From positions 1-35,601 of the forward strand of contig CALXOC010000092.1 in NCBI GenBank assembly GCA_944389915.1: 35,601 nt of DNA. The letters are read 5' to 3'. The notes beneath the pieces are model-generated. The model had not been told where the DNA came from and made no database searches. It was given only the letters and a program-made list of their open reading frames with translations. Source of the DNA: an uncultured Opitutales bacterium (lineage in GTDB: Bacteria; Verrucomicrobiota; Verrucomicrobiia; Opitutales; Intestinicryptomonadaceae). The translations under genes and the position numbers were made by a program. The first letter of the stretch is position 1; each line of letters starts with the position of its first letter. Below, one piece after another: positions 7,520-22,839 of the stretch.

Positions 7520-7530
7520 TAAAAAACTTC

Positions 7531-7759: not shown

Positions 7760-7787
7760 TTCCAACATTGAATTGTTTTGCGCACAG

Positions 7788-8738: not shown

Positions 8739-8771
8739 AATTTTAGCAATGCCACAATTATTGGAAGATAA

Positions 8772-9230: not shown

Positions 9231-9257
9231 TCCGTGCAATTTTGCGGCGAAACATAC

Positions 9258-9274
9258 CGCGCGCAGTGCGCGCG
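9258..9274. other. GC-rich hairpin between convergent genes
   Basis: CGCGCGC-AGT-GCGCGCG forms a perfect 7-bp stem between the ends of the yhcH-like gene and the flavoprotein gene. There is no T-run on either side, so bidirectional termination is possible but not shown. Confidence 0.35.
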
Positions 9275-9322
9275 CAAAAATTTGAAACTTCGCAAAACGA
9301 AACTGTGCTCAACAAAAAATTT

Positions 9323-10780
9323 TTAATCCGCAATCTGGGCAAGCTGTTCCGCCGTACTGAGAGCGTTCAGGCATATTAGGAAGTCCTCTTTTTTTGCCGG
9401 AGGATTATTTTCCAACTTAATTTTGAGATTTTTTAAACCTTCCGCGCACTTTGCAATTCCGGCCTCGCTCCTATGAACACCCGCATAAGTATCCAAAAGC
9501 TCGCCTATGCCTTTTAAAATGGCCATAGCCGATCCGTCTCCCTCGGGAATGTTTTTTAGGAAAGTCTCGCACTCGGCGCCTATGTCCTGATTGGAGGCTT
9601 TATATGCCGCCGCTGAAATTCCGGCTGCCCTTCCAAACACAAATATCTCAAGCCCCGCATTTCCGCCTATGCGATCCCTGCCGTGTATGCCCCCGCAAGC
9701 TTCTCCGGCGGCAAACAAACCGGGAAGGGAAGTAGAGGCGTCAGAGGATATTTTTATGCCGCCGAGCGTCGTATGCGCTGCAGGTTTTACTTCAACTCTA
9801 AGATTTTTATAGTCCGCCGAAACGGGTCTCAGTTTTTTATAATATTCGGGATATTTAGACTTAAAAATCGACTCTTCAACACCGGAAAAATCAAACCACA
9901 CGCCCCCGTGCCCGCAATCTCCGCCGTCTGCCACAGCCGCAGTAATAAGCTCTGCAAGCCCACGCTTCGCTGGCATGGAGACACCGGGCTTTAGCACTTC
10001 CCGCCCGCGCGAATCGATAAGCTTTGCGCCCTCGAACAGCATTGTTGTTATTATGGGAAAGCCGCGAAACTTTTCCGGATAAACCGTTACGCAAGGTTCA
10101 AACTGAACCCTCTTCATGCCAGTCAATTCCACTCCGGCATCGAGAGCCAATGCGTAGCCGGAACCTTGAAGGGACTTTGTCCACGTTGAAAATCCGTATA
10201 ACCCCGCCGCGCCGCCCGTAGTGAGAATGACACCCGGCACGCTATATGCAACCGCCCCGCCATTTTCAAAGCCCAAAGCTCCGGCAATTCTGCCGCCTTT
10301 AACAAACAGTTTTACTATTCTGGACTTTCTGAACTCCACCTGCGGGCATTTTTTCAGCTCCGTGCGGTATTTTTCAATGGCAGCTTTCCCAGTAACAGTC
10401 TTATAGTGCACAACCCGGTGAAAGCTCGACCCGAGTGAACGCAGCATATCGTAAGAACCGTCGCATTTGCGGTCGAATTTTATTCCGTCGGACTCAAGGC
10501 TCTTTGCAATATCTTTGGCGTCGGAGCAAAGGCGCCTCACAAGGGCGGGATCGTTTTCACCATTGCCGGCGCGCATAGTGTCTTCAACGAAACAATCTAC
10601 AGAGTCTTTGGAATCCATGGGAGCGCACAGGCCCATCACCTCCGTAGAAGCGCAGCCTCCCAAATCCGCTATTACAAGCTTCTTTTCGGGAGCAAGCTCA
10701 GTTATTGTCAAGGCGGCTTTCAATCCGGATAATCCGCCGCCGACAATCAGAACGTCGCTTTTTACAGAGCTTATTCCCAT
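9323..10780 (-). CDS. Fumarate-reductase/aspartate-oxidase-like FAD flavoprotein
   Basis: A 485-residue soluble flavoprotein of the succinate dehydrogenase/fumarate reductase flavoprotein superfamily. The N-terminal dinucleotide fold is VLIVGGGLSGLKAA (GxGxxG at residues 14-19). The substrate-domain signature HTTLGGIKI and the C-terminal FAD/substrate motif GLFAAGEACGGIHGRDRIGGNAGLE are intact. There is no Tat or Sec signal, so it acts in the cytoplasm, unlike flavocytochrome-type reductases. The ATG at 10780 overlaps the end of the dehydratase gene by 10 bases, so the two are translationally coupled; an earlier start would add 29 residues inside the upstream gene. Within the cluster it probably oxidises or reduces an unsaturated or 2-hydroxy acid intermediate, but the substrate is unknown. 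L-aspartate oxidase is less likely because no quinolinate genes are adjacent. Confidence 0.75.
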   Translation of the reverse strand: MGISSVKSDVLIVGGGLSGLKAALTITELAPEKKLVIADLGGCASTEVMGLCAPMDSKDSVDCFVEDTMRAGNGENDPALVRRLCSDAKDIAKSLESDGIKFDRKCDGSYDMLRSLGSSFHRVVHYKTVTGKAAIEKYRTELKKCPQVEFRKSRIVKLFVKGGRIAGALGFENGGAVAYSVPGVILTTGGAAGLYGFSTWTKSLQGSGYALALDAGVELTGMKRVQFEPCVTVYPEKFRGFPIITTMLFEGAKLIDSRGREVLKPGVSMPAKRGLAELITAAVADGGDCGHGGVWFDFSGVEESIFKSKYPEYYKKLRPVSADYKNLRVEVKPAAHTTLGGIKISSDASTSLPGLFAAGEACGGIHGRDRIGGNAGLEIFVFGRAAGISAAAYKASNQDIGAECETFLKNIPEGDGSAMAILKGIGELLDTYAGVHRSEAGIAKCAEGLKNLKIKLENNPPAKKEDFLICLNALSTAEQLAQIAD

Positions 10781-12444
10781 ACCGCACCTTTTGCAAGCGA
10801 ACCCACATTTTTTGAGAATAAGCGCAAGAACGGCGGATATTTGTCTTTTGGGAACTCCCACTTCCACTCTTTTTTGCGGGCTGAAAGCTCTTCTGGGGCA
10901 ACAAGTATGTCGAGTTTGCGGGAATCCAAATCTATGTCAATTATATCGCCGTTCCTCACCAAGGCAAGAGGCCCTCCTAAGCCGGCTTCAGGCGATACAT
11001 AACCTATGCTTAAGCCGCTTGAAGCTCCCGAAAACCTGCCGTCCGTAACAATGGCAACAGATTTGTCCAACCCCCTGCCCTTGAGCTCTTTTTGGAAAGT
11101 GTATGCTGTTGTTCCAAAGCGCGCCTTTGGCCCCAAATACCTTATTACAGCTACTTCCCCTCCTTTTATTTCGTCGGCGCGCAAGGCTTTCATCGCGTCC
11201 TCAAGCGAATCGAATACCCTTGCCGGGCCCGAGAATTTGCGCATTTTAGAATCAACCGCACCCGCCTTAATTATTCCGCCTTCCGGCGCGAGAGACCCGT
11301 AAAGAACATTCAACCCTCCGCTCGACGAATATGGATTCTCCAGAGAGCGTATGACTTCGCTGTCGTAAACTTTAGCGTCGGCGTAATTTTCCGCAATAGT
11401 CCTGCCCGTTACAGTGAGGCAGTTCCCGTTTAGCTTGGGCATCAATTCATGAAATACGGCAGCCGAACCGCCTGCCCTGTCAACATCCTGCAAGTGCCAC
11501 GGCCCGCTCGGAGACGCCCCCACTATTTGCGGAATATTGTTTGAGGCTTCGTCAAACATTCTCCACCACTCGCCCTCAAGCCCCGCCTCGGTTGCTACCG
11601 CGGGTATGTGCATAAGCAGATTTATAGATCCCGCCATGGCCATTGAGGCGGCTATTGCGTTTTCTATAGACTCTTTCGTTATAATGTCGCGCGCCCTTAT
11701 GTTTCTTCTCAACAATTCCATGACTTGCCGACCCGCCCGATATGCGCACTGAAGCAAATCGCTGCTTGTTGCGGACATCAAAGAGTTCTCGGGAAGGGAC
11801 ATTCCGAGAGCCTCCGAAACCAAACACATGCTGTTGGCGGTGGTCATTATGCCGCAAGCCCCGCAGGAGGCGTACATGCCCGATACCTCCCTGTATGCCT
11901 TGTCCTTATCGTATTTGCCCTGCATGGTTTTTCCGATATGGTCGCTCAACTCTCCGTAATTTGCGCTCTTGCCGTCTAAAAACGGCATGGGCATATAGCC
12001 TCCCGTAACCATGACAGTCGGAATATTCAGGCGCGCCGCGGCCATGAGATGCCCGGGGACTATGGAGTCGCAGGTGGAAAGCATAACCATGGCGTCGAAC
12101 ATATTGCTCTCCACTATCAGCTCGACTTCGTCGGCTATGGAGTTTCTGCTTGGAAGTTCTATATACTTTTCATTTCCAAGAACCATGCCGTCGCACACTG
12201 CAGTTGTCATCAACTCGAAGGGAAGCCCTCCGGCCTCGCGTATGCCCTGCTTTACCCTCTCACTCAAATTGCGCAAGTGCACATGCCCGGGATTATACTC
12301 GTTCCAAGAATTTACCACCGCCACTATGGGGCGGTTAAATTCCTCCTCCGTATATCCCATGCCGCGAACCAGTCCTCTGCGGCATTCGCGGGCGAGACCG
12401 TATTTCCAATTGCTGCGGCAAGATTTCAATATGTCGTTTTCCAT
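10771..12444 (-). CDS. IlvD/Edd family dehydratase, probably sugar-acid type
   Basis: A 557-residue iron-sulfur dehydratase that should convert a 2,3-dihydroxy or aldonic acid to its 2-keto-3-deoxy product. Cluster-binding and active-site regions are visible: STCDSIVPGHLMAAARLNIP (C125) and YASCGACGIMTTANSM (C197), plus VVNSWNEYNPGHVHLRNL at residues 44-60, which has the PGH form of E. coli IlvD rather than the PCN form of [2Fe-2S] arabinonate dehydratases. The usual Lys after CD is Ser here. No isoleucine/valine genes are nearby, and the neighbours are an SDR, an FAD flavoprotein and, across the promoter region, a KDG-kinase-like gene, so a catabolic sugar-acid substrate is more likely than branched-chain amino acid synthesis. 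It starts 15 bp after the SDR gene. Confidence 0.82.
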   Translation of the reverse strand: MENDILKSCRSNWKYGLARECRRGLVRGMGYTEEEFNRPIVAVVNSWNEYNPGHVHLRNLSERVKQGIREAGGLPFELMTTAVCDGMVLGNEKYIELPSRNSIADEVELIVESNMFDAMVMLSTCDSIVPGHLMAAARLNIPTVMVTGGYMPMPFLDGKSANYGELSDHIGKTMQGKYDKDKAYREVSGMYASCGACGIMTTANSMCLVSEALGMSLPENSLMSATSSDLLQCAYRAGRQVMELLRRNIRARDIITKESIENAIAASMAMAGSINLLMHIPAVATEAGLEGEWWRMFDEASNNIPQIVGASPSGPWHLQDVDRAGGSAAVFHELMPKLNGNCLTVTGRTIAENYADAKVYDSEVIRSLENPYSSSGGLNVLYGSLAPEGGIIKAGAVDSKMRKFSGPARVFDSLEDAMKALRADEIKGGEVAVIRYLGPKARFGTTAYTFQKELKGRGLDKSVAIVTDGRFSGASSGLSIGYVSPEAGLGGPLALVRNGDIIDIDLDSRKLDILVAPEELSARKKEWKWEFPKDKYPPFLRLFSKNVGSLAKGAVWE

Positions 12445-12459
12445 GTTTGTCTGTGCTTT

Positions 12460-13245
12460 TTACCTGCCTATCATGATGTCGAGAACGCCGTCTATGCTCT
12501 GGCCTCCGTCAACCACAAAAGTCTGGCCGGTAATAAAACGAGTCTTTTCAACATCCGCCAAAAACAGTATCATCGGGGTGATGTCGTCCACGCAGCCGAG
12601 GCGCCCTACGGGAATTTTGCGCTTAAACGCCTCCATTTCGTCCTCCGAATAGCGATACGACAACTTCGTCATTATAAAACCGGGCGCTATGCTATTGATG
12701 TTTATGCCATCTTTGGCTATTTCGGCCGCGAGAGATTTTGTAAACATGTTTAAGCCTGCTTTTGCCGCGCAATAAGGAAGCGCCTTGCGCTTCACATAAG
12801 TCACTATGCTGTGCACGGAGCTTATGTTTATTATGCGTCCGGGACATTTTTTTGCAAGCATGTCGCGCACGGCTATTCTCGAGCAATACGCAGCGGCGCT
12901 CAAATTGAGGTTTATCTGCGAATCCCAATAGCTCATCGGCATGTCGGCAAATCCGCCTTCGGGCATTTTCAGCGCGCCTCCGGCATTGTTGACAAGCACG
13001 TCAACACTGCCGAAATCGGATATGAACTTCTCCATCATCTCCTCGCACTGCGCGCAACTTCCCACGTCTGCGCGGTACACCTCCGATTTCATTCCGAACT
13101 CTCTGACCTTTGCCGCGGTAGCCTGCGCGCCTTCCTGATCTTTGAAGTAGTTTACTCCAACATTATAGCCTTCTTTCGCGAAGGCGATTGCAGCCGCGGC
13201 TCCTATGCCGTGGGAAGAGCCTGTTATAATAACATTTCTTGCCAT
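12460..13245 (-). CDS. SDR-family NAD(P)-dependent oxidoreductase
   Basis: A 261-residue classical short-chain dehydrogenase. The cofactor loop TGSSHGIGAA (residues 8-17), the structural NNAG (87-90) and the catalytic set S142/S143, Y158 and K162 (YCAAKAG) are all present. The acidic or basic residue that would fix NAD versus NADP preference is not clear-cut, although the loop after beta2 (VNYFKDQEGA) lacks the usual Asp. FabG-like and gluconate-5-dehydrogenase-like enzymes share this profile; in this cluster it probably oxidises a sugar or sugar acid upstream of the dehydratase. I choose the ATG at 13245 because AAGGAA lies eight bases upstream; a TTG one codon earlier is possible. A 122-bp gap containing an inverted repeat separates it from the ROK gene, so an internal promoter is plausible. 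Confidence 0.88.
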   Translation of the reverse strand: MARNVIITGSSHGIGAAAAIAFAKEGYNVGVNYFKDQEGAQATAAKVREFGMKSEVYRADVGSCAQCEEMMEKFISDFGSVDVLVNNAGGALKMPEGGFADMPMSYWDSQINLNLSAAAYCSRIAVRDMLAKKCPGRIINISSVHSIVTYVKRKALPYCAAKAGLNMFTKSLAAEIAKDGININSIAPGFIMTKLSYRYSEDEMEAFKRKIPVGRLGCVDDITPMILFLADVEKTRFITGQTFVVDGGQSIDGVLDIMIGR

Positions 13246-13271
13246 CAATTTGATTCCTTGTCTATATTATT

Positions 13272-13289
13272 TAAATCGTGTATGATTTA
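13272..13289. promoter_or_regulatory. Inverted repeat upstream of the SDR gene (candidate operator)
   Basis: TAAATC-GTGTAT-GATTTA is a perfect 6-6-6 inverted repeat centred about 35 bp upstream of the SDR start. It sits just upstream of a leftward -10-like AATATAGAC. The half-site GATTTA also occurs in the palindrome at 15436-15449, so the same regulator might bind both. Confidence 0.4.
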
Positions 13290-13367
13290 TTTTTAATGTA
13301 TATCTGCTCAATGTTTGTAAATGTAAAGCTTAATTTTAAAAAAACCGACGCCTGCATTTGCTGTGTC

Positions 13368-14510
13368 TCAAAAGAACTTCTCATAAGCCATTCTTACTCC
13401 TCCAAGAGCCGACTGCAAAGATCCCAAGGTGCTTAAGCCTATCTCAAATCTGCTCATGCGCTCTTGCGGAAGAACATTTTCCAAAGCCTTCAGCGTCTGT
13501 TTGAATAAAAAGCCGTCCTTCCTGCATTGGCCGCCGTAAAATATGAGGGCGTCTGGAGAATAAAGCTGAATCATGCTGGCAATTCCCACCGCGTTGTACG
13601 AGGCTGCAGTCGTTAAAATATCAATAGCTTCGGGATACCCGTTTTCGGCCGCGTAATCGAGAGCCGCAGCACTGTGCAGCTCAGGCCTGTCGGGAATCTT
13701 CTCCCGCGCGACGGCAGCCAGATATTCTCCGCCAGAATACGACTCCAAACAACCTCTAAAGCCGCACGTGCATATATGCTGGTTGCCGGGAATAAGCATG
13801 TGCCCTATATATCCCACCGGACACCTCGGCTGGCTGACCAGCAAGTGGCCGTTGGAAATAACGCCTGAAGCTATGCCGACGCCAAGCCCTACAGTAACAA
13901 GATTGGAATGCCCCCGCCAACGCCCGAAATGATATTCCGCAAGCACGCCGGCCGAAGCAGCTGTAACAACTGATACCGGCACTCTCGCATATTTTGCCAA
14001 TACTCCCCCCGCCGGGAGGTTGGTCCCCCACTTCACTCCCCAGTTTCCTCCGGACACAATCACTCCCGTCTCATGGTCGACGTTTCCGGAAACAGACATT
14101 CCCACTCCCTTGAGCCTGCCCCTATCCATGGGAGCTTCGTTTACTATGGTGTCGAACACCCAGCGCAGCCAGTCGAAAAACCTTTCCTCTCCGCTGTAAT
14201 ATGGGGTAGGAATTTCATTCTTATATATCGTGTTAAAATTGAGATCGCAAACAAGCATGCGAGTGCGGCTGGCTCCCAAGTCTATGCCTATGAAATACGC
14301 CGAAGCGGGATTTATGCAAATGGGTATCATAGGCCTCCCCCGTCCCGAAGGCTCCTGTTTGCGCGCAAATAAATAACCTTGCGCAACAAGGGAATCTACA
14401 ATTTTGCACATCGTTCCCCACGACACCCCCGTGCGCTTTTGAATGTCTTTCTTTGAGAAGCCGGTTTGGCCTTCCCTGACAGCGTCTGATATTATAACCG
14501 TGTTTCGCAT
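13368..14510 (-). CDS. ROK-family transcriptional regulator
   Basis: A 380-residue repressor-type ROK protein. Residues 1-60 form a winged helix (FSKKDIQKRTGVSWGTMCKIV) ending in the family linker GRGRPMIP; the remainder is an actin-like sugar kinase fold beginning FIGIDLGASRTR. The ROK zinc motif is complete: H237 and C247-T-C-G-F-R-G-C254-L-E. The kinase active site looks degenerate: the usual Asn-Asp of the NDANAA segment is replaced in VVTAASAGVLAEY, and the GEIGH Glu is Tyr (GYIGHM). It therefore most likely senses a sugar or sugar phosphate without phosphorylating it. It shares one base with the stop of the MBL gene (TAATG), so the two are co-translated, and it is a good candidate for controlling this divergent cluster. 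Confidence 0.88.
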   Translation of the reverse strand: MRNTVIISDAVREGQTGFSKKDIQKRTGVSWGTMCKIVDSLVAQGYLFARKQEPSGRGRPMIPICINPASAYFIGIDLGASRTRMLVCDLNFNTIYKNEIPTPYYSGEERFFDWLRWVFDTIVNEAPMDRGRLKGVGMSVSGNVDHETGVIVSGGNWGVKWGTNLPAGGVLAKYARVPVSVVTAASAGVLAEYHFGRWRGHSNLVTVGLGVGIASGVISNGHLLVSQPRCPVGYIGHMLIPGNQHICTCGFRGCLESYSGGEYLAAVAREKIPDRPELHSAAALDYAAENGYPEAIDILTTAASYNAVGIASMIQLYSPDALIFYGGQCRKDGFLFKQTLKALENVLPQERMSRFEIGLSTLGSLQSALGGVRMAYEKFF

Positions 14511-15379
14511 TAAGCTCCGGCCCTCAAATGGGCGTTTACAGTGAACATTGGCAGAAATATAAATGCAGGCATATGCCCTCCCATATGCCTTATGAGCTCT
14601 ATTGCAAGCTCCGGCAGCTCAACTATCCCGCGCGACTTAAAATCGCGTATTAATGCATGGTAAGTTTCGGTTAAATAGTAGCATGTATCAATATACCAGC
14701 GCGCATTCTCTTTCCCCAGCGCAAATTCGCCGCACGGCAGGTAGTCGTGCCCGGCTATAATGTTTTCGGGAGCAAGCTCTTGAAGGCGCCGTATGGAGTT
14801 GCGGTACACTTCCAAATCTTGATAAAATCCAACTCCTTGAAGAAGGGTGCCATTGGCCTGAAGGCTATCACCGCTTATGAGAGTCCGGGTCTTTTCGTCA
14901 AACCAGCATACGCAGTCGCTGTCGTGCCCCGGAGTGCAAATCAGGCGCAGGCGGCCGCCTATGAGCGCGCCGTCTTCAATTCCAAAATCCGGCTCCACGC
15001 CGCGAAGCGACGCAGACGGCGGAGGGCTGTATTTCGGGAAAGGCGCGCGTATGAGTTTGTTATATTTTAAAGGGTCGCGTATCTTGTCAAAGGACGAAGA
15101 CAAAGCTCCTATTTTTGCATTTGAAATCTCTTTGAAGCGGCAATGCCCCCCCACATGGTCTCCGTGTGAATGGGTATTCAGCAAAAGAGATATGTCATCT
15201 ACATTCAGCCCTTCATCTTTTAAGGCGGGAACAATACATTCGTCCACGATTTCCCTGCTGGCTCCGCTATCTATGAGAACATTCTCATCTGCCCTTATCA
15301 AAATAACGCCGCTCCACGAACCGCAAAAAGGCGTCTTCAACAGTTTTATTCCGGGAACAATTTCCTCAAACTTTAACAT
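14510..15379 (-). CDS. Metallo-beta-lactamase-fold hydrolase
   Basis: A 289-residue cytoplasmic metallohydrolase of the glyoxalase II/lactonase group. The dinuclear zinc motif is NTHSHGDHVGGH (H70, H72, D74, H75), with further ligands in CTPGHDSDC, LISGDSL (bridging Asp) and IIAGHDYL. No signal peptide is seen. The ATG at 15379 is preceded by AAGGAGAA at eight bases, one of the strongest ribosome binding sites in the window; an earlier in-frame start would add 18 basic residues within the promoter. It is the first gene of the leftward operon. In this setting a lactonase or thioester/ester hydrolase that opens a sugar lactone or releases an acid from CoA is plausible, but the substrate is not shown. 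Confidence 0.8.
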   Translation of the reverse strand: MLKFEEIVPGIKLLKTPFCGSWSGVILIRADENVLIDSGASREIVDECIVPALKDEGLNVDDISLLLNTHSHGDHVGGHCRFKEISNAKIGALSSSFDKIRDPLKYNKLIRAPFPKYSPPPSASLRGVEPDFGIEDGALIGGRLRLICTPGHDSDCVCWFDEKTRTLISGDSLQANGTLLQGVGFYQDLEVYRNSIRRLQELAPENIIAGHDYLPCGEFALGKENARWYIDTCYYLTETYHALIRDFKSRGIVELPELAIELIRHMGGHMPAFIFLPMFTVNAHLRAGA

Positions 15380-15409
15380 ATTTGAAATTCTCCTTGACAA
15401 AATTCTCCG

Positions 15410-15415
15410 TCTATA
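15410..15415 (-). promoter_or_regulatory. Candidate -10 element of the MBL-ROK operon
   Basis: Reading leftward the hexamer is TATAGA, followed by CGGAG, giving a start near 15403. The FNR-type palindrome is centred about 40 bases upstream of that start, the spacing of an activator at a class II promoter. No convincing -35 is present, as expected when an activator is needed. Confidence 0.4.
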
Positions 15416-15435
15416 TTTCCATCTAAAAATCACAT

Positions 15436-15449
15436 TTGATTTAAATCAA
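15436..15449. promoter_or_regulatory. FNR/CRP-type palindromic operator in the divergent promoter region
   Basis: TTGATTTAAATCAA is a perfect 14-bp palindrome and matches the FNR consensus TTGAT-N4-ATCAA exactly. It lies between the divergent MBL and fdrA genes. For the leftward promoter it would be at about -40; for fdrA it lies 25 bp from the start codon and could block or overlap the promoter. A ROK or other regulator that uses the GATTTA half-site is the alternative. Confidence 0.55.
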
Positions 15450-15473
15450 GAAAATTATTAAAAAAAAATTGCG

Positions 15474-17012
15474 ATGTCTTTAAAAACTGTAACCGTTCAT
15501 GAGAACCGCTATGCGGATTCCGTTACTCTGATGGGCATATTGGACGCCGTAAAGAGAAGGGATTCCGTAAGCTTAGCCGAAGTTCAAATGGGAACTCCAG
15601 CAAATATTGAAGCAATGAGGGAATTGGGCTTTGAAATTCCCGCGTCGGCCGGACCGAACGACCTAATAGTTGCGATAGAAGCCGACACTGAAGCGGCCTT
15701 AAAAGACGCCCACGAAGACGTAATGAACCGGCTAAACCGAAAGGGGGGCAGCAGCGACGAGACTTTCAACTCCATAGACGAAGTCGACACCTCCGACGGC
15801 TGGAACCTATGCCAAATATCCCTCCCCGGCGAATACGCCGCCGACGAAGCGGCCAAGGCCATAGAAAAAGGAATGGACGTTTTCATATTTAGCGACAACG
15901 TCTCTATTGAAGATGAGCTTCGCCTAAAGAAACTCGGCGCAGAAAAAGACGTATTGGTAATGGGTCCGGATTGCGGAGTTGGGTTTTTAGACGGAACGGC
16001 TCTTGCCACAATGAGCATTGTCGACGAAGGCCCCATAGGAATAGTTGGAGCCTCGGGAAGCGGAGCGCAGGAAGTGGCGTGCATAGTGGAAAAGGCAGGC
16101 TCCGGAATATCTGCCTTAATTGGAACCGGCGGGCGGGACCTATATCCGCAAATCGGCGGCTTGTCCATGCTCAAGGGCATGGAGCGCCTGGCGAAAGACG
16201 GGGATACGAAAGTCATAGTGCTTGTCTCGAAATTGGCCGATAGGGCGGTAATGGACAAAGTTCTATGCAGCGCCGATAAGATATCAAAACCGGTTGTTGC
16301 AATATTCTTGGGCGCGGACGAAGCACTCTTTGCCTCGCACAAGGTACATCCGGCGTTCAGCCTTGAGGAAGCTGCGCTCAAGGCGCTTGAGCTCTGTTCA
16401 ATATCATGCGGAAAATTTGCGCTTACATCAGACAAGATAGCGCAAATAGTGGAATCTGAGATGAAGAAATTTTCGGCGCAACAAAAATACATGCGCGGAA
16501 TATATTGCGGCGGAACTTTTGCCGAAGAATCCTTAATTTACCTAAAGGAGCACAATCCGGAATCGGAACTCTACTCCAATTTAAACACGCGTTATGCAAA
16601 ACGCCTTGAAGACCATCTTGTAAGCCGCGGGCATGCCTTAATAGATTTGGGCTCCGAGGAGTTTACATTAAACGCACCTCACCCAGTATTCGACCCTGAA
16701 TTGAGATTGAAACGCTTTAGGCAGGAGGCGGCAGATCCGGAAACCGCCGTAATACTTCTCGATTTCATAACGGGACCCGGCGTCCATGAAAATCCGATAT
16801 CGCCCTTTGCGGAAGCTTGCGCGGAAGCGTTAAAGGCGCGCAGCGAAGCCCTGGCTATAATAGCGTCTATATGCGGTTCAAAGAACGACCCCCAAGACAT
16901 ATCCAAATGCGCAAAAGAACTTGAAGACGCCGGAGTGATACTGACGGGAAGCAACCATCAAAGCACGCTGCTTGCAAGCGCATTTATGCGCGCGCTCGAC
17001 GAAAGGAAATAA
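15474..17012 (+). CDS. fdrA: FdrA family protein (acyl-CoA synthetase-like, AllF type)
   Basis: A 512-residue protein related to the succinyl-CoA synthetase alpha subunit. E. coli FdrA (AllF) is one of three proteins, with DUF1116 and DUF2877 partners, reported to form oxamate carbamoyltransferase in anaerobic allantoin breakdown. Visible motifs are MGPDCGVGF (163-171), the nucleotide/CoA-fold loop GIVGASGSGAQE (189-200) and IGTGGRDLYPQIGG after it; the second half carries LIDLGSEEFTLNAPHPVFDP and LLDFITGPGVHENP. It heads a tight rightward run with all three module genes in the E. coli order. The ATG has no Shine-Dalgarno sequence and follows an A-rich tract. Against the allantoin reading, no carbamate kinase, allantoinase or ureidoglycolate gene lies in the window, so the substrate is probably different. 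Confidence 0.88.
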   Translation: MSLKTVTVHENRYADSVTLMGILDAVKRRDSVSLAEVQMGTPANIEAMRELGFEIPASAGPNDLIVAIEADTEAALKDAHEDVMNRLNRKGGSSDETFNSIDEVDTSDGWNLCQISLPGEYAADEAAKAIEKGMDVFIFSDNVSIEDELRLKKLGAEKDVLVMGPDCGVGFLDGTALATMSIVDEGPIGIVGASGSGAQEVACIVEKAGSGISALIGTGGRDLYPQIGGLSMLKGMERLAKDGDTKVIVLVSKLADRAVMDKVLCSADKISKPVVAIFLGADEALFASHKVHPAFSLEEAALKALELCSISCGKFALTSDKIAQIVESEMKKFSAQQKYMRGIYCGGTFAEESLIYLKEHNPESELYSNLNTRYAKRLEDHLVSRGHALIDLGSEEFTLNAPHPVFDPELRLKRFRQEAADPETAVILLDFITGPGVHENPISPFAEACAEALKARSEALAIIASICGSKNDPQDISKCAKELEDAGVILTGSNHQSTLLASAFMRALDERK

Positions 17013-17016
17013 CCCC

Positions 17017-17184
17017 ATGAAAGACAAAAATTGCAAGTGCAAAAAACTGAAAGTAGTAAACCTCGGGTTGCAGACCTTCGCGGAATCCCTGCGGCGCCAA
17101 GGCGTAAAGGTTGCGCAGATTAACTGGCGCCCGCCTGTCAAGCTCGACAAGGAGATGAAAGACTTGCTCGACTCGCTTTTATAA
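17017..17184 (+). CDS. 55-aa FdrA-associated small protein
   Basis: A tiny gene starting four bases after the fdrA stop and ending 16 bases before the DUF1116 gene. The protein starts with a basic, Cys-containing MKDKNCKCKKLK and has the core KVVNLGLQTFAESLRRQGVK followed by VAQINWRPP. A closely similar NxGLxxFAxxLxxQGxxVxxVDWRPP segment is, as I recall it, found as a terminal extension in some FdrA-type proteins and as a separate small gene in others. That makes this a split-off accessory segment of the complex rather than a random frame. Its tight packing between two module genes supports it being real. Its biochemical role is unknown; a cofactor- or subunit-docking piece is a guess. Confidence 0.75.
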   Translation: MKDKNCKCKKLKVVNLGLQTFAESLRRQGVKVAQINWRPPVKLDKEMKDLLDSLL

Positions 17185-17200
17185 CAGAAAATACATAATT

Positions 17201-18457
17201 ATGGGAATCAAAGAAAAAATCGAAAAGGCAAACGAAAAGGCCGTCAGCGAACTTATCGACGCCAATCCCGTGTGGGTCGACATACTTCCTGCCGGCGAAG
17301 TAATAGACGGATTGGAGCCGAATATGATTCTCCATTCCGGCCCGCCTATAGAATACAAGGACATGGTGCCACTCCACAAGCGCGGAATGGTAAGCGGAGC
17401 TCTATTTGAAGGCCTGGCCAAGAGCGAAGCCGAAGCGGTTGCAAAACTTGAAAGCGGAGAAATAAAAGTCAGCAGCGCGCTCGACCACAACACCGTTGGG
17501 GCGGGAACAGGAATTATAACATCGTCGGTTGCGATGATGGTTGTAGAAAACAAAAAGACCGGCGTGCGCGCGGCAACCTTCCCTGCGGAAGGGCCTTTCC
17601 AGGGCGGACTGTGCGGTTGGGGTTTATACACGGAAGATATTGCCGCAAATTTGCGCTACATGAAAAACGAGCTCTTTCCCGTCATGCGCGAACTTTTGCA
17701 CAAACGCGGAGGGCTGCCAATCAAGCCCATACTCGCCGAAGGCATGCAGATGGGTGACGAGAACCACACTCGCCAAAGCGCCGCAGATTTGATATTTAAC
17801 ACCCAAATCCTGCCCGACCTGTTCCGCATGGACATAGACAAGCCCACCTTGCTAAAAGTCATGGACTACATAGTGCAGACTCCGCGCTTCTTCCACTGCT
17901 ACGGCCAGGGCGCAAGCATGTCGGCTCTCTTGTCTGCAAAGGGAACTCCATATTCAACGATGACGGTCGCCTTCGGAGGCAACGGAGTGGAATTCGGCAT
18001 CAAAGTTGCCGGAATGGGCGACGAATGGTTCACCGCTCCCGCAATGATGATGAAGGGTCGCTATACATCATCAAAGTTTAGCGAGAAGGACCAGCTGCCT
18101 TGGATAGGCGACAGCTGTGTTGTGGAGTGCGCCGGACTCGGCGGCATTGCCGCCGCGGCAAGCCCCATTGTTTGCAACCTCAGGGGAATGAAGCTTAAAG
18201 ACGCCATAGCGCTAACGCGCGAAATGCAGCAAATATGCATAAGCTCCAATCCCAACTATCCCATACCAAACCTCGACTTCGATTTTCTCCCATGCGGAAT
18301 AGACATTCGCAAAGCCATAAAGACCGGCATAACTCCGGAGATACACGGCGGAATGTTCAACCACGAAGGAGGCCTTATAGGAGCCGGAAGCGCGCGAATC
18401 CCCATGATGTGCTTTGAAAAAGCGCTAAAGGCATTCGCGGCAAAATATCGCGAGTAA
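17201..18457 (+). CDS. allG: DUF1116 protein, AllG (YlbE)-like
   Basis: A 418-residue protein collinear with E. coli AllG/YlbE (oxamate carbamoyltransferase complex). Shared features are the opening ANPVWVDILPAGEVIDGL, then MILHSGPPIEYKDMVPLHKR, the middle LAEGMQMGDENHTRQSA, IKVAGMGDEWFTAPAMMMKG, and the ending DIRKAIKTGITPEIHGGM with NHEGGLIGAGSARIPMMCFE. The conserved MGDE-H and GDS segments are presumably part of the active site. No signal or membrane segment is present. It lies directly between the small FdrA-associated gene and the DUF2877 gene, an arrangement that fixes its role as part of the three-protein module. Whether the substrate is oxamate or another carbamoyl or acyl acid is open; the gene symbol refers to the family. 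Confidence 0.88.
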   Translation: MGIKEKIEKANEKAVSELIDANPVWVDILPAGEVIDGLEPNMILHSGPPIEYKDMVPLHKRGMVSGALFEGLAKSEAEAVAKLESGEIKVSSALDHNTVGAGTGIITSSVAMMVVENKKTGVRAATFPAEGPFQGGLCGWGLYTEDIAANLRYMKNELFPVMRELLHKRGGLPIKPILAEGMQMGDENHTRQSAADLIFNTQILPDLFRMDIDKPTLLKVMDYIVQTPRFFHCYGQGASMSALLSAKGTPYSTMTVAFGGNGVEFGIKVAGMGDEWFTAPAMMMKGRYTSSKFSEKDQLPWIGDSCVVECAGLGGIAAAASPIVCNLRGMKLKDAIALTREMQQICISSNPNYPIPNLDFDFLPCGIDIRKAIKTGITPEIHGGMFNHEGGLIGAGSARIPMMCFEKALKAFAAKYRE

Positions 18458-18498
18458 CGCATAACTGGCAAAATTTTCCGCGCCCAGATTTAATTTCT

Positions 18499-19332
18499 AT
18501 GAAAGCAATAATAGCCGTAGAAACGCGCCTGGGACCGGATTTAAAGAATGCGCCCGCCCTAAGGGGCCGGGTGCATTCTGTTTTCAGCCGCTCATTCAAC
18601 GTCGCTTTTGGAGACGAAATTCTAACGGTGCATGCCGATGGGCAAAGCGGAATTCCCGACTCTCTGCTTCTGAAACCGGAAGATTTTGCTGGACTTCGCA
18701 CGGAAGCTTTTGAATGCGCATTTTGGACTTCGAGCGGCCTGCTCTTAGACGGCACAAAAATAGATACCGCTTCGGCACCAGACAAGGGCAACTTTTTTGG
18801 ATCCGAATTTGTTGCCGCATCAAAGCCGGAAATTGTGGAACGCATCCATTCCATCGGCTTCTGCCACAAGCTCGAAGGCAAGGGAGATTCAATATCCCGA
18901 GACATAGCCGCATGCCTTGCAAAAGGGAATCTTGCATCTTGCGAAAAATTGCTGGCAAAGGCCATAGGCCTCGGGCCGGGACTCACGCCTTCAGCCGACG
19001 ACGCAATACTGGGAATTGCCGCCGCCGCCTTCAGATATTTCGCGGATAAAAATATTCCCACTAAATTTTCCCAAGCCGCATACCGGATATCTGAAAATCG
19101 CACAAGCGACATAAGCCGCAAATACCTTAAATGCGCCTCCCAGGGCAGATTCGCAATTCCGCTCATAAGAGTTGTTGATTCGCTCCTTTCATCCGGCGCG
19201 CAAGTAGACTACCAAGCGCTTGCCAAACTTCTTGCATCGGGCCACTCTTCGGGAAAAGACACGCTGCGCGGCGCAATATTGGCGGCAGAAGCGCTTGCAG
19301 CCCCCGACACCTACGGAATTAACGACGCTTAA
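18499..19332 (+). CDS. allH: DUF2877 protein, AllH (YlbF)-like
   Basis: A 277-residue protein with the family hallmark GLGPGLTPSADDAILGIAAA (about residues 156-175) and the N-terminal RGRVHSVFSRSFNVAF. It is the third member of the FdrA/AllG/AllH module, 41 bp after the DUF1116 gene. The C-terminal half is helical (LLSSGAQVDYQALAKLLASG-HSSGKD), ending in the family's HSSG-D segment. The reaction step carried by this subunit is not known. Oddly, codons 16-27 coincide with a long GC-rich palindrome whose arms are also found 5 kb downstream; see the repeat at 18545-18578. A near-palindrome in the 84-bp gap after the stop may end or regulate the transcript before the kinase gene. Confidence 0.85.
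   Translation: MKAIIAVETRLGPDLKNAPALRGRVHSVFSRSFNVAFGDEILTVHADGQSGIPDSLLLKPEDFAGLRTEAFECAFWTSSGLLLDGTKIDTASAPDKGNFFGSEFVAASKPEIVERIHSIGFCHKLEGKGDSISRDIAACLAKGNLASCEKLLAKAIGLGPGLTPSADDAILGIAAAAFRYFADKNIPTKFSQAAYRISENRTSDISRKYLKCASQGRFAIPLIRVVDSLLSSGAQVDYQALAKLLASGHSSGKDTLRGAILAAEALAAPDTYGINDA
18545..18578. repeat. Palindromic repeat copy 1 (inside the allH-like gene)
   Basis: Arms AGAATGCGCCC (18545-18555) and GGGTGCATTCT (18569-18579 region) pair with one G-T wobble, and the inner GCCCT/AGGGGC extends the stem. Both arms recur at 23483-23512. Because the right arm encodes part of a conserved GRVHSVF segment, coincidence with coding constraint cannot be excluded. Confidence 0.45.
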
Positions 19333-19338
19333 AGACGC

Positions 19339-19365
19339 AAAAAATTCAACAATGGTGAATTTTTT
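19339..19365. promoter_or_regulatory. Near-palindrome before the kinase gene (operator or weak terminator)
   Basis: TTCAACAATGGTGAA is a near-perfect 15-bp palindrome (one mismatched pair) flanked by six A on the left and a run of T on the right, so the inverted repeat spans 27 bp. It lies 52 bp before the kinase ATG. Regulators of the IclR/KdgR type bind comparable sites, and an IclR gene follows downstream. The A/T flanks could equally form a weak bidirectional terminator. Confidence 0.45.
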
Positions 19366-19416
19366 TTGGCAAATAGAAATTTGACGCGCCAAAACGCGCA
19401 ATGTTATTTTTCTGCC

Positions 19417-20502
19417 ATGCTTTTAACATTTGGAGAAATAATGCTTAGAATATCAACCCGGGAACCGCTGACGCTGAGCCAGATATTGCCCGGAACAGTG
19501 GAGGCCACTTTCGGCGGCGCAGAATCGAATGTTGCATTCTCATACTCGCGGCTCGGGGGGAAATCCTCGTTTCTTACGGCGCTTCCCGACAATAAGGTTG
19601 CAAAAGCCGCTATGGCGCAACTGAAATCGCAGGACGTCGACGTATCGGGAGTAAAATATGTGAACGGCGGCCGAATGGGAATTTTCTACCTTGAAAAGGG
19701 CGCAAACCAACGCCCGAGCTCAGTCACCTACGACCGCTCAGAATCGGCATTCTCAAAATGTCCCTTTGAAGACTCCGATTTTGAGAGGGCTCTCGAAGGC
19801 GTTTATAGGGTACATATCACCGGCATAACGCCGGCGCTATCAAAAAAGTGTTTTGAAGCCTCCAAGCGCCTCGCCGAATTGGCGCACTCAAAGGGAATAA
19901 AGCTCTCCTGCGATCTCAACTTCCGCAACAAGCTATGGAAATGGGAGAATGGCACAACTCCAAGGGAACTGGCAAGAAAATCGATGCCGGAGATATTGAA
20001 GTTTGCAGACGTGATAATAGGGAACGAGGAAGACGCCTACGATGTTCTCAACATAGCTCTTGGAAATACAGACCTCGGAGCCGGAAAGTTGGATTTGTCG
20101 CGCTACGGACAAGTTGCGCGCTCTATTGCCTGCAAATTTCCTGAAGCAAAGAAAATCGCCCTCACGCTTAGAGAGAGCGTATCTGCCGATTACAATATGT
20201 GGGGCGCAATGATGCTCGATGCAGAAAGCGGGGAAATATGCCAGGCGCCCATGTCAAACGGCGAATACCGCCCCTATGAAATCAGAGACATAGTCGACCG
20301 CGTCGGCGGAGGCGATTCCTTTGCGGCGGCGCTGCTATACGCCCTCGATATTGAAAAATTTGAAAACAATTACGATACTCTCGCATTCGCGGTGGCGTCG
20401 TCGTGTTTAGCCCATTCAATATTCGGGGACTATAACTACGCGACGAAATCAGATGTGATGTCGCTTATGAAAGGTTCCGTTTCCGGACGCGTTCAGCGCT
20501 AA
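19417..20502 (+). CDS. kdgK: PfkB-family sugar kinase, 2-keto-3-deoxygluconate kinase-like
   Basis: A 361-residue ribokinase-fold enzyme. The N-terminal LLTFGEIMLRISTREPLTLS and GGAESNVAFSYSRLGGKSSF, together with the length, match 2-dehydro-3-deoxygluconokinases, which phosphorylate KDG with ATP to give KDPG for aldolase cleavage. The C-terminal PfkB signature DRVGGGDSFAAALLYAL contains the catalytic base D300 and the anion hole. I start at the ATG at 19417, where family similarity begins; an in-frame start at 19366 adds 17 unsupported residues. No KDPG aldolase gene is seen in the window. It is in the rightward run with the FdrA module and just before the IclR regulator, so its substrate is probably the 2-keto-3-deoxy acid made by the IlvD-type dehydratase. 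Other PfkB substrates remain possible. Confidence 0.8.
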   Translation: MLLTFGEIMLRISTREPLTLSQILPGTVEATFGGAESNVAFSYSRLGGKSSFLTALPDNKVAKAAMAQLKSQDVDVSGVKYVNGGRMGIFYLEKGANQRPSSVTYDRSESAFSKCPFEDSDFERALEGVYRVHITGITPALSKKCFEASKRLAELAHSKGIKLSCDLNFRNKLWKWENGTTPRELARKSMPEILKFADVIIGNEEDAYDVLNIALGNTDLGAGKLDLSRYGQVARSIACKFPEAKKIALTLRESVSADYNMWGAMMLDAESGEICQAPMSNGEYRPYEIRDIVDRVGGGDSFAAALLYALDIEKFENNYDTLAFAVASSCLAHSIFGDYNYATKSDVMSLMKGSVSGRVQR

Positions 20503-20545
20503 GCGCTCTTGCAAATTGCAGAAATATTTTCTATGAGTTTTGCCG

Positions 20546-21343
20546 ATGAATAAAAAAGCCGGCAAAACCAAGCGCGTTAAGTTGATATCGTCGCTGTCCA
20601 AGGGATTAAAGATAATCGATATTCTCACGCCCGTAGAAAAGGGTTTCAAGCTAAAGGATATCGCGCGGGAATCCGGCATGGCGGCGCCGGCTCTCATTCC
20701 GTACATAAGGACGCTTGCGGCATGCGGTTGGTGCTACAGGGACGGCCGCTCAAAGCGATATTTTCTATCCCAGAAAAAAAAGGACGCCTTTGTAAACTAT
20801 TCCGACGACGCCCGCTCATATATCGCCCGCGCAGCGGAAGCCCCCATGCAAAAATTGTTCAAAAGATTTAACGAAAATATTCTGCTTGCGGTGCGCCGTG
20901 CCGACAGGGTCGTTTTCTTCAACAAACTTGAAAGCCGCAGAAGCTCAAGAATCGAAGTGGACCAGCTTCCGGATTATCCCCTGCATGCAACCGCCGCTGG
21001 GCGCGCAATATTGGCTTTCGAAAATCCCGATTATATAAGGGAGTATTTATACGGGGCCAAGTATGAATTGTACACTAAATACACGATACCCAACAGGGCA
21101 AAACTTGAGGTCGAGCTCGACCTCACGCGCGAACGCGGCTACGCTTTCAACAACCGCGAGTTTGAGGATTTTATAATGGCAATTTCCGCTCCAATTTATA
21201 TGGATTCATCGCCGAGGGCATCCATTACAATGCAGCTGCCGGAGTCCCGCTACACCGCAAGCGACTGCCATAAAATGGCAAAATACCTCAGGACCTGCGC
21301 CGACAGGATAAGCGACAAGCTTGCCAAACACAAGGCAATATAG
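20546..21343 (+). CDS. IclR-family transcriptional regulator
   Basis: A 265-residue regulator with a winged helix in residues 10-80 (SSLSKGLKIIDILTPVEKGF, then LKDIARESGM and LIPYIRTLAACGWCYRDG). The IclR effector domain follows, with LHATAAGRAILAF, an extended substrate pocket and MAISAPIYMDSS. Members usually bind a small organic acid or a keto-sugar acid; KdgR-type proteins bind KDG. It sits 43 bp after the kinase gene and converges with the MFS gene, so it is the last gene of the run and a likely local regulator. The ATG at 20546 is preferred over a TTG two codons upstream. A candidate operator lies ahead of the kinase gene. Confidence 0.9.
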   Translation: MNKKAGKTKRVKLISSLSKGLKIIDILTPVEKGFKLKDIARESGMAAPALIPYIRTLAACGWCYRDGRSKRYFLSQKKKDAFVNYSDDARSYIARAAEAPMQKLFKRFNENILLAVRRADRVVFFNKLESRRSSRIEVDQLPDYPLHATAAGRAILAFENPDYIREYLYGAKYELYTKYTIPNRAKLEVELDLTRERGYAFNNREFEDFIMAISAPIYMDSSPRASITMQLPESRYTASDCHKMAKYLRTCADRISDKLAKHKAI

Positions 21344-21400
21344 CATCGGCGCAATAGACAAATCCTGCAATATCGCCAGGCATATGTTACAACGGATATC

Positions 21401-21418
21401 GGCTTTGCAAGCAAAGCC
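21401..21418. other. Perfect inverted repeat between convergent IclR and MFS genes
   Basis: GGCTTTGC-AA-GCAAAGCC is an 8-bp perfect inverted repeat. A second hairpin, CCGCA-AAA-TGCGG, lies at 21437-21449. They occupy the 131-bp gap where the two transcripts meet and probably help end them, but there is no T-run. Confidence 0.4.
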
Positions 21419-21474
21419 CGCAATAATTGCCACACACCGCAAAATGCGGACAGCACGCTTTGCCTAAGAAGCCG

Positions 21475-22767
21475 CTAAGCGTTATTTGCATCAAAAGCCA
21501 TCGCGCGGGCGCAATCGCGGGCATAGAATAGCTTGTATATAACAAAGAGCAGCAATCCAAAAAATAGCCATACCGTAGACAGCATTGCAATTCCGAGCGA
21601 CAGGCCAAAATGCGGTTTCATAATTCCCAAAACCCACGGAGAGAACGAACCGAGGCAGAAGCCCAAAAAGAGCATGATGCCGGTTGCGGACCCCCTGTAT
21701 TTTACGGGGATCACATCGTAAAGCACGGGATATATATTGGCGTCGTAAAAACCGCGCCAAAATCCGAACCCCGCAAATCCGAGGAATACCCATATTATTT
21801 CATCGGAAAATCCCATGAGGGCTATAAATGGAGAGGCCAACAAGAATCCCATGCTTTGCAGCAGCACCCTGTATTGAGCCTTCTTTGCCGCGAGCTTATC
21901 GGAGAGCCAACCCGCTATCAGTATTCCGGCAAACGCCGTGATATGCGTATAGAATACAGCATTGAAACCGGCCGCAGCATTGGACATTCCGAACTTCTCC
22001 TGAAGATAAAGCGTAGACCAAGTCAGATAGCCCTGCACCACGAATATAAGCCCGGCAAAGGAGAGGGTAAGAACTATGGCAGTTGGAACGGTGAAGAATA
22101 TTTTTATCGCCTCCCATAGCGAAGGCCTGCTTTTTTTACGCTCTCTCAACTGCTCAGCAGACATGGGCGCAACCTTGTCTTTAAGCCGCCACATTATAAT
22201 AAATGATAAAACAAGGCCTATGGAACCGAATAAGAAAAATGCAGGCCTCCATCCCCACCTGTCCCCTATCCAACCGGCAATAAGGCCGCTTACAATTATT
22301 CCAAAGTATTGCGATGTTGTGTGAATGCTCATCGCTTTCGCCCTGGTGTCCTTATCGTGGTAATCCGATATCATTGCGTAGTTTGAGGGGGCAAAACACC
22401 CTTCGCCCAAACCGGTAGCGGCGCTTCTAAAAATTATGAACAGCCAAAACCCAGTACAAGCCCCGGAAATCACGGTGGCCGCGCTCCACAGCATGATGCT
22501 GAATACTATAATCCACTTCTTGCTGAAATTGTCCGCCAAAAAACCCGTTATGGGAAAACATATCGCCAACACCCATAAAAAGATTGTTCCAATCAGCCCC
22601 GCATCCGCCGGAGTCAGGCTTAGCGATTCCGATATTTTCTCCAACAATGTGTTATAAAGTTGGCGGTCGGCCTGATTAAACCAATAGGCAAACCACAATA
22701 GAATCAAAACCTCCCATTTGTAAAATCCGCCCTTGTTGCTCGCGTTTACAGATATATTTTCAGACAT
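21475..22767 (-). CDS. MFS transporter (organic-acid/sugar-acid type)
   Basis: A 430-residue, 12-helix major facilitator transporter in the inner membrane. After a short polar start (MSENISVNASNKGGFYKWE) the first helix carries WFAYWFNQADRQLYNT. The MFS loop 2-3 signature is GFLADNFSKKW, and GLGEGCFAPSNYAMISDYHDK with TSQYFGIIVSGLIAGW resembles ACS- and spinster-type families that carry hexuronates, phthalate-like or other organic anions. Its position at the end of the sugar-acid cluster suggests it imports the substrate. The ATG at 22767 is preferred: the in-frame start at 22839 adds 24 residues that form a spurious extra hydrophobic segment. There is no Shine-Dalgarno sequence; a 15-bp palindrome lies 32 bp upstream. 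Confidence 0.87.
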   Translation of the reverse strand: MSENISVNASNKGGFYKWEVLILLWFAYWFNQADRQLYNTLLEKISESLSLTPADAGLIGTIFLWVLAICFPITGFLADNFSKKWIIVFSIMLWSAATVISGACTGFWLFIIFRSAATGLGEGCFAPSNYAMISDYHDKDTRAKAMSIHTTSQYFGIIVSGLIAGWIGDRWGWRPAFFLFGSIGLVLSFIIMWRLKDKVAPMSAEQLRERKKSRPSLWEAIKIFFTVPTAIVLTLSFAGLIFVVQGYLTWSTLYLQEKFGMSNAAAGFNAVFYTHITAFAGILIAGWLSDKLAAKKAQYRVLLQSMGFLLASPFIALMGFSDEIIWVFLGFAGFGFWRGFYDANIYPVLYDVIPVKYRGSATGIMLFLGFCLGSFSPWVLGIMKPHFGLSLGIAMLSTVWLFFGLLLFVIYKLFYARDCARAMAFDANNA

Positions 22768-22798
22768 GGAAAACAAGATAAGCATATGGGGCAAATTC

Positions 22799-22813
22799 GC
22801 AAATATTATTTGC
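22799..22813. promoter_or_regulatory. Palindrome upstream of the MFS gene (candidate operator)
   Basis: GCAAAT-ATT-ATTTGC is a perfect 6-3-6 inverted repeat 32 bp upstream of the transporter start codon, placed where a repressor would cover the promoter. It differs from the motif before the kinase gene. Confidence 0.35.
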
Positions 22814-22839
22814 AAAATGCTCTTAAAAAAAACTCCCAT

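Follow-up and report, generated by a model that had tools for sequence, protein, structure and literature searches.

The AllFGH enzyme of Escherichia coli (FdrA, AllG, and AllH), an oxamate carbamoyltransferase (OXTCase), reversibly converts oxalurate and inorganic phosphate (Pi) to carbamoyl phosphate and oxamate (PMC11326118). Genes for the same three subunits lie in a 35,601-nucleotide stretch of DNA from an uncultured Opitutales bacterium (assembly GCA_944389915.1, contig CALXOC010000092.1), hereafter called the window, which is the entire contig C92 of a 218-contig draft genome of 2.21 Mb that is 93.7% complete. Here, a conserved gene cluster found in anaerobic gut-type bacteria seems to turn this enzyme of nitrogen metabolism to another use, in which phosphate splits an oxidized sugar acid and the cut yields ATP rather than losing its energy.

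Two further described systems come close to parts of the locus. In the non-phosphorylative Route III for L-rhamnose, L-fucose, and pentoses (PMC6336799), an aldose 1-dehydrogenase, a lactonase, and an acid-sugar dehydratase are followed by C4 dehydrogenation, and a hydrolase of the FAH family then splits the 2,4-dioxo acid into pyruvate and either glycolate or lactate. For microcompartment loci of Planctomycetota and Verrucomicrobiota, a published analysis (PMC8857213) predicts conversion of fucose and rhamnose to lactaldehyde, lactyl-CoA, lactyl phosphate, and finally lactate.

The module in the window resembles AllFGH in subunit order and shared core residues, and its phosphorylated product would likewise be passed to a kinase encoded nearby. 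It differs in that its AllG belongs to a separate clade; that IlvD, FrdA-like, SDR, and MBL genes replace those of allantoin degradation; that an acetate kinase (AckA)-type kinase takes the place of the carbamate kinase AllK; and that the bond cleaved would be C-C rather than C-N. The trunk of Route III (SDR, lactonase-type hydrolase, and acid-sugar dehydratase) is present in the window by family only, and the scheme proposed below would share with Route III the C4 dehydrogenation and the C-C cleavage to pyruvate and lactate or glycolate. The differences are that the window genome has no FAH match, that an AllFGH-type module would use phosphate in place of water, and that an FrdA-like flavoprotein would replace the SDR 4-dehydrogenase. 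The operon-kinase signature described below also occurs in the microcompartment kinase of the window genome, but in the described pathway lactyl phosphate is predicted to arise from lactaldehyde via lactyl-CoA, whereas direct phosphorolysis of a diketo acid is proposed here. Such a phosphorolytic proposal for diketo acids was not among the matches listed in the open-licence PMC literature.

Conserved neighborhood of a separate AllG clade

An initial annotation of the window had reported a complete and ordered FdrA-AllG-AllH module, divergent from genes for an MBL hydrolase, an SDR, an IlvD-type dehydratase, and an FrdA-like flavoprotein, and followed by a 2-keto-3-deoxygluconate (KDG) kinase-like gene, an IclR regulator, and an MFS transporter. 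Assignment of the open reading frames (ORFs) by Pfam and NCBIfam profile scans bore this out (Table 1), with a ROK gene between the MBL and SDR genes that had been missed and a corrected MFS ORF. The reported absence of allantoin genes and carbamate kinase held for the 20 window proteins scanned (ORFs beyond 29465 lay outside the scan, and allantoin genes were not searched for genome-wide), and the best score of the arcC carbamate kinase model in the window draft genome was 19.5 bits, below its cutoff. The initial observation is real and unusual.

A genome scan with AllG only, which reached close relatives only, returned 35 loci with 60 to 94% identity in Verrucomicrobiota, Lentisphaerota, Planctomycetota, and Bacillota (phyla taken from record titles). 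The nearest module-bearing relatives of the window genome are Opitutales and Verrucomicrobiaceae drafts. The distribution is patchy, with AllG in 4 of 88 genomes of relatives, including the window's, all from one genus. In the AllG tree, an acyl clade containing the window protein was split from an E. coli-side clade at 100/99 support. Neighbors were tallied with hidden Markov models built from window-type proteins and, for carbamate kinase, from E. coli AllK and YahI, with one label per ORF, so that fused ORFs are undercounted. After removal of duplicates (L049, L050, L051, L112, and L122, equivalent to L004, L005, L007, L013, and L010), and excluding the outlier L114 and L119 (an FdrA-AllG ORF at a contig end, unplaced in the tree), 43 acyl-clade loci remained. 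FdrA was found in 40 of these, FrdA-like and IlvD in 35 each, SDR in 34, MBL in 32, AckA in 31, AllH in 28 (29 with a fused ORF in L021), 2-keto-3-deoxy-6-phosphogluconate (KDPG) aldolase in 23, PfkB in 20, and carbamate kinase in none; AllD was likewise absent from all 43, and an AllC homologue occurred in 1. Among the 28 of these loci that were well flanked, having at least 4 kb on either side of AllG, the counts were FdrA 28, IlvD, FrdA-like, and SDR 27 each, MBL 25, AllH 24, AckA 22, aldolase 16, PfkB 15, and carbamate kinase 0.

None of the 22 loci in the E. coli-side clade, E. coli allG and yahG among them, contained an IlvD, FrdA-like, MBL, SDR, or AckA gene, and carbamate kinase was present in five; FdrA was tallied in 18 of the 22, or 20 once the ORFs fused in L103 and L108 are added. 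The 12 well-flanked loci of this clade had carbamate kinase in 4 and IlvD, FrdA-like, and AckA in none. The clade is named E. coli-side because not all of it is carbamoyl-type, as the neighbors of L094 indicate. In the large clostridial subgroup that L094 represents (L093-L102, L104-L107, and L110), a further AllFGH context, carbamate kinase adjoined the module in just 1 of 15 loci; L094 itself (4367-13332) has a CoA-transferase family III protein, a PucR regulator, a PF04199 cyclase, and a CN_hydrolase protein as neighbors, and genes of similar size occur next to the module in many loci of the group.

With dozens of loci showing this combination of genes, a chance neighborhood was rejected, and the objection that the arrangement might not be conserved among relatives fails. 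A plain OXTCase or allantoin module was also rejected, given the other AllG clade and the lack of a linked carbamate kinase. The initial annotation had further pointed to a pathway in which a sugar acid is oxidized, dehydrated, and phosphorylated while the module handles a carbamoyl or acyl group. The sugar-acid oxidation and dehydration part stood; the phosphorylation step was only accessory, in view of the counts for PfkB and KDPG aldolase; and an acyl group is favored because AckA-family genes occurred in 31 of the 43 acyl-clade loci and carbamate kinase in none. The carbamoyl half of the claim is unlikely for this AllG clade.

The same division was seen in a sample chosen regardless of neighbors, namely the class of Lachnospiraceae draft G096, presumably Clostridia. 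PF06545 (AllG) was found in 24 of 391 genomes at 30 places, 27 of which were fetched; the remainder were two AllG fragments (G461:C286 and G109:C64) and the G096 place, already in hand as L036. Carbamate kinase was present in 3 of the 19 E. coli-side loci, AckA and IlvD in 0 of 19. The six acyl-clade loci, with L112 retained, had IlvD in all six and AckA in five; L115 ends soon after AllG. The other two fetched places were the outlier L114, with AckA and without IlvD, and the unplaced L119.

A separate AllG lineage, L116 to L118, had AckA, IlvD, and KDPG aldolase in all three loci and FrdA-like in L116 and L117; the L118 contig, without an FrdA-like match, stops about 100 bases past FdrA. No MBL match was found in L116, where an Amidohydro_2-like protein (PF04909, 25.2 bits, just below the 26.4 cutoff) adjoins FrdA-like, and an aldose 1-epimerase lies near the module in both L116 and L117. 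In the long-branched AllG-FdrA outlier L114 (8489-14142), the acetate kinase is of the operon type and a gene resembling hormone-sensitive lipase is present, with no IlvD or FrdA-like match. Elsewhere, a DHDPS-family protein stands between MBL and IlvD in L121, and the 275-, 360-, 481-, and 503-residue genes of L004 encode, respectively, a class II aldolase, a protein unmatched in NCBIfam, an oxidase of GlcD-like type, and an FGGY kinase. A family scan of neighbor genes took in 78 of the 157 listed, with 25 of its 86 families given. Glycosidase neighbors comprised GH43 genes and, over 76 residues, a weak match to alpha-1,6-mannanase, and they do not fix the sugar.

An acetate kinase family gene in place of carbamate kinase

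The commonest neighbor family missing from the window was cluster c6, present in 26 of 36 loci and in many of them immediately after AllG. It belongs to the acetate kinase family (PF00871, E values of 3.2e-96 and 3.3e-102 in two representatives). In all 13 genomes checked, each picked for having the operon, a separate ordinary acetate kinase was encoded alongside the operon kinase, with PF00871 scores of 484 to 547 bits for the ordinary and 290 to 345 bits for the operon type. The two types were separated in the kinase tree at 100/100, and they differed in a three-residue signature, R91K, L122 to A/V/S, and D148E (position 150 in E. coli; the number 148 is presumably that of Methanosarcina). 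Each of the 31 distinct operon kinases carried the signature (32 rows if the duplicate L112 is counted), as did all 10 kinases of the type found in the window genome (9 from its genus and 1 from another), whereas ordinary acetate kinases had the canonical R, L, and D in 17 of 17 rows and the signature in none. The L011 kinase, cut by the contig end at 199 residues, was counted as AckA present and excluded from the signature count. A solved propionate kinase retains the ordinary LHNP, DTAFH, and GTRSGD segments in the alignment.

The only acetate kinase match of the window genome, on contig C27, carries the operon-type signature and falls on the operon-type side of the tree. Its locus (L048, 5869-10003) encodes PduL, three BMC-H proteins, one EutN, and an aldehyde dehydrogenase. 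Judged by similarity, three genus mates have these microcompartment genes in an identical arrangement, and in L168 they are followed by a class II aldolase. For each of the six well-flanked loci lacking AckA, an operon-type kinase is encoded elsewhere in the genome: the genomes of the window, L004, L005, and L007 have the microcompartment-type kinase, that of L010 has an operon-type kinase on another contig, and L121 shares its genome, that of Oligosphaera ethanolica DSM 24202, with L009, which has one.

Residues of the module and of the FrdA-like flavoprotein

Positions kept at 95% or more in both AllG clades were H403, R411, D391, and K272 in FdrA; D186, H189, R191, W276, D304, and E309 in AllG; and G157, G159, G161, T163, P164, D167, D168, T202, and S251 in AllH. 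Against this common core, AllG had 20 positions at which each clade had its own residue in at least 90% of rows (43 versus 22 rows). The exceptionless switches, written from the acyl to the E. coli side, were G139R, I147V, G260R, K268R, and W301D. At positions 136, 139, and 260, Gly in the acyl clade (43/43 at each) is replaced by Lys or Arg on the E. coli side (21/22 at 136 and 22/22 at 139 and 260).

The nearest solved structure to the window FdrA was 3dmy, E. coli FdrA (E value of 5.7e-68), and the single solved-structure match of AllG was 3clq (6.7e-63). For AllH, an AlphaFold model with a mean pLDDT (per-residue model confidence) of 95.3 gave no Foldseek match in the PDB at an E value of ≤0.001, and the best VIA-align result had a Z score of 4.7 over 75 residues. 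In a crude motif test of the first 120 residues, 0 of 57 FdrA rows contained GHAG or G.TG..G, which we take to be the phosphohistidine and CoA loops, respectively, of succinyl-CoA synthetase alpha; their absence speaks against a CoA-dependent reaction. FdrA and AllG are fused in single ORFs of 999 to 1,046 residues in three loci (L103:9294-12293, L108:7694-10705, and L119:1061-4198), in line with a complex. A further single ORF, L021:12420-13862, consists of AllH followed by KDPG aldolase and may be a natural fusion or an assembly effect.

Compared with SdhA and NadB, the FrdA-like flavoprotein has Glu at SdhA H242 and Lys at SdhA R286 in 35 of 35 rows, and it keeps SdhA H354 and the C-terminal Arg, likewise in 35 of 35. 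SdhA R286 is presumably the catalytic Arg and H242 the His of the second carboxylate site. On these assumed roles, one carboxylate clamp would be kept, while the other clamp and the catalytic Arg would be changed. Because of these substitutions together with the residues kept, a fumarate reductase or aspartate oxidase activity is unlikely, and a monocarboxylate substrate is suggested.

A proposed phosphorolytic pathway and its alternatives

The sequences show gene linkage, separation of the clades, replacement of the kinase, and active-site switches; the reactions, their order, and the sugar discussed here are those that we infer from them. The SDR, whose catalytic-type Tyr and Lys are kept in 34 of 34 rows, would act as aldose 1-dehydrogenase and oxidize an unphosphorylated aldose (or its acid) to a lactone. 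The MBL hydrolase, with its HxHxDH motif in 32 of 32 rows, would open the lactone to the aldonate as an aldonolactonase, and IlvD, with four Cys conserved throughout its 35 rows, would dehydrate the aldonate to a 2-keto-3-deoxyaldonate. Oxidation at C4 by the FrdA-like flavoprotein would give a 2,4-diketo-3-deoxyaldonate, a 1,3-diketone that FdrA-AllG-AllH would cut with Pi: R-CO-CH2-CO-COO- + Pi → R-CO-OPO3 + pyruvate. The 2-hydroxyacyl phosphate (lactoyl, glycoloyl, or glyceroyl) would then be converted to ATP and the 2-hydroxyacid by the divergent acetate kinase family enzyme, supplied from the operon in most relatives and, in the window genome, from the microcompartment locus. A parallel outlet for the 2-keto-3-deoxy acid would be formed by KDG kinase and KDPG aldolase.

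The proposed cleavage is the carbon analogue of the AllFGH reaction, in which NH would become CH2 and NH2 would become R, so that a 2,4-diketo acid would correspond to oxalurate, pyruvate to oxamate, and an acyl phosphate to carbamoyl phosphate. From this swap, an acetate kinase family enzyme would be expected in place of carbamate kinase. FAH (PF01557) gave no match in 14 of 17 module-bearing genomes, including the window's and those of three genus mates. Since the trunk is that of Route III and FAH is mostly unmatched, the FrdA-like flavoprotein and FdrA-AllG-AllH-AckA were assigned to the two missing steps by elimination. As for the hydroxyacid product, the L029 operon extends into a LarA lactate racemase (604.7 bits, cutoff 460), EtfB, EtfA, and a GlcD-type dehydrogenase, and that of L031 extends into EtfB, EtfA, and GlcD-type homologues (by cluster membership, the GlcD type also by NCBIfam scan); both extensions resemble those for lactate oxidation.

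Several observations weigh against this scheme. FrdA-family enzymes usually act on C-C bonds adjoining carboxylates, so that C4 oxidation by the FrdA-like protein is assigned by elimination; alternatively, the 4-dehydrogenase might be the SDR, with some other role for the flavoprotein. FAH is present in 3 of the 17 genomes (G088, G089, and G095). The arcC model matched 13 of the 17 at an E value of ≤0.001, 3 of them strongly (307 to 363 bits, 1 above the cutoff) and none of those 3 in the window's genus; the weak matches say little, because the model also matches all 14 control genomes. At the window locus itself there is no acetate kinase gene, and the microcompartment kinase is not dedicated to the module, because 5 of the 9 genus members that have it, among 13 listed, are without an AllG match. 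The pocket roles of AckA residues 91, 122, and 148 are presumed. AllH was found in just 28 of the 43 acyl-clade loci (29 with L021) and in neither L003 nor L007. The lactate clue is limited to one AllG subclade, with LarA in L029 and EtfB, EtfA, and GlcD in L029 and L031. KDG kinase and KDPG aldolase, the latter adjoining AllH in the L021 ORF, would fit just as a side branch.

These last two enzymes belong at the center of an alternative in which SDR, lactonase, IlvD, KDG kinase, and KDPG aldolase constitute a semi-phosphorylative Entner-Doudoroff pathway, and FrdA-like with FdrA-AllG-AllH and AckA would be a distinct module for another substrate, joined by shared regulation only. The window PfkB is closest to the KDG kinase 2afb (E value of 1.4e-67, residues 18 to 378) and has the G.GD catalytic motif as GGGD; KDPG aldolase occurs in 23 of the 43 loci, with the L021 fusion to AllH and a single match in the window genome (contig C164). 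PfkB and the aldolase are, however, absent from about half of the loci, and IlvD, FrdA-like, and AllG stay together even in L116-L117, a separate lineage lacking any PfkB match. The Entner-Doudoroff alternative is considered unlikely, though likelier than the two that follow.

The homologous three-subunit enzyme of E. coli has OXTCase activity (PMC11326118). Together with the core residues of FdrA, AllG, and AllH that are invariant in both clades, this speaks for a true carbamoyltransferase, in which case the pathway would break down a sugar acid carbamoylated at N or O (a ureido sugar acid) and the AckA-like enzyme would serve as carbamate kinase. That possibility is rather improbable, given that carbamate kinase was found in none of the 43 acyl-clade loci and by a 19.5-bit match only in the window genome, that AllG positions such as 136, 139, and 260 are fixed differently by clade, and that IlvD and FrdA-like are constant companions. 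The resemblance of FdrA to succinyl-CoA synthetase alpha, and the fact that AckA-family kinases commonly follow a phosphotransacylase, would fit an enzyme that swaps the CoA of an acyl-CoA for phosphate, with ATP made as by Pta-AckA and FrdA-like and IlvD forming a separate part of the pathway. This is very improbable in light of the missing GHAG and G.TG..G motifs and because carbamoyl phosphate and oxamate served as the substrates in assays of the E. coli enzyme (PMC11326118).

The best reading of the module is thus that of an acyl-phosphate-forming, probably diketo-acid-cleaving enzyme, with the specific reaction standing at about an even chance. The whole scheme, an oxidative non-phosphorylative aldose pathway with a phosphorolytic last step by FdrA-AllG-AllH and ATP gain by an AckA-type kinase, is slightly favored. 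A wider proposal is tentative, its chances a little short of even: FdrA-AllG-AllH of the acyl clade may be a cofactor-independent C-C phosphorolase for 2,4-diketo acids, requiring neither thiamine diphosphate nor CoA and providing substrate-level ATP through C-C cleavage, and the whole AllFGH family may be phosphorolases of X-CO-(NH/CH2)-CO-COO-, with allantoin degradation as one branch. Phosphoketolase, the textbook case of phosphorolytic C-C cleavage, needs thiamine diphosphate. If the phosphorolytic scheme is true, it would add a reaction type, phosphorolytic C-C cleavage, and anaerobes would save the energy of 1,3-diketone cleavage, which goes uncaptured in the known diketo pathways that use hydrolysis, gaining ATP from sugar without a prior ATP outlay on phosphorylation. 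A function would also be provided for proteins now named oxamate carbamoyltransferase or acyl-CoA synthetase, and the acetate kinase subfamily would be explained.

Other features of the window and its genome

Table 1. Features of the window around the FdrA-AllG-AllH module
Feature	Coordinates	Strand	Evidence and remarks
FrdA-like flavoprotein	9323..10780	-	PF00890, E 4.3e-41; ORF open to 10867; start near 10780 judged by eye, probable
IlvD/EDD-family dehydratase	10771..12444	-	PF00920, E 9.4e-105; PF24877; NCBIfam ilvD 556 bits, below 618 cutoff
SDR dehydrogenase	12460..13248	-	PF13561/PF00106
ROK-family protein, probably regulator	13368..14510	-	PF00480, E 7.7e-38; weak N-terminal MarR_2 match, below cutoff
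MBL-fold hydrolase	14510..15379	-	PF00753, E 1.1e-25; ORF open to 15433
Intergenic region separating divergent gene sets	15380..15473		About 94 bp, given an MBL start at the ATG near 15379 (by eye)
FdrA (AllF-type, succinyl-CoA-synthetase-like)	15474..17012	+	PF00549; NCBIfam "acyl-CoA synthetase FdrA" 405.7 bits, below 433 cutoff
AllG (DUF1116), acyl-type clade	17201..18457	+	PF06545, E 1.7e-65
AllH (DUF2877)	18499..19332	+	PF11392, E 1.4e-23
PfkB kinase, 2-keto-3-deoxygluconate-kinase-like	19366..20502	+	PF00294
IclR-family regulator	20540..21343	+	PF01614, PF09339
MFS transporter, probably for sugar or sugar acid	21475..22839	-	PF07690, E 2e-55

The probable start of the FrdA-like gene gives an overlap of about 10 bases with the end of IlvD, as judged by eye. 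Promoter-like sites numbered 29, versus a mean of 17.5 in shuffled sequence, with nothing specific among them, and no operator-like repeat was found in 15300-15520. An imperfect inverted repeat with 27-nucleotide arms, 74% complementary, lies at 21391-21483 between the IclR and MFS genes.

On contig C44 of the window genome (L003), another FdrA-AllG pair is accompanied by MBL and MFS genes; its AllG is 89% identical to that of the window, and neither AllH nor a second close IlvD was found with it. Farther from the module, an ORF of 841 residues at 23520-26045 had zero Pfam matches at an E value of 0.001. The contig start (14-1288) encodes a GH129-like/DUF5696 protein; DUF5696 is likewise encoded close to the L014 operon, with a homologue (cluster c24) in L015.

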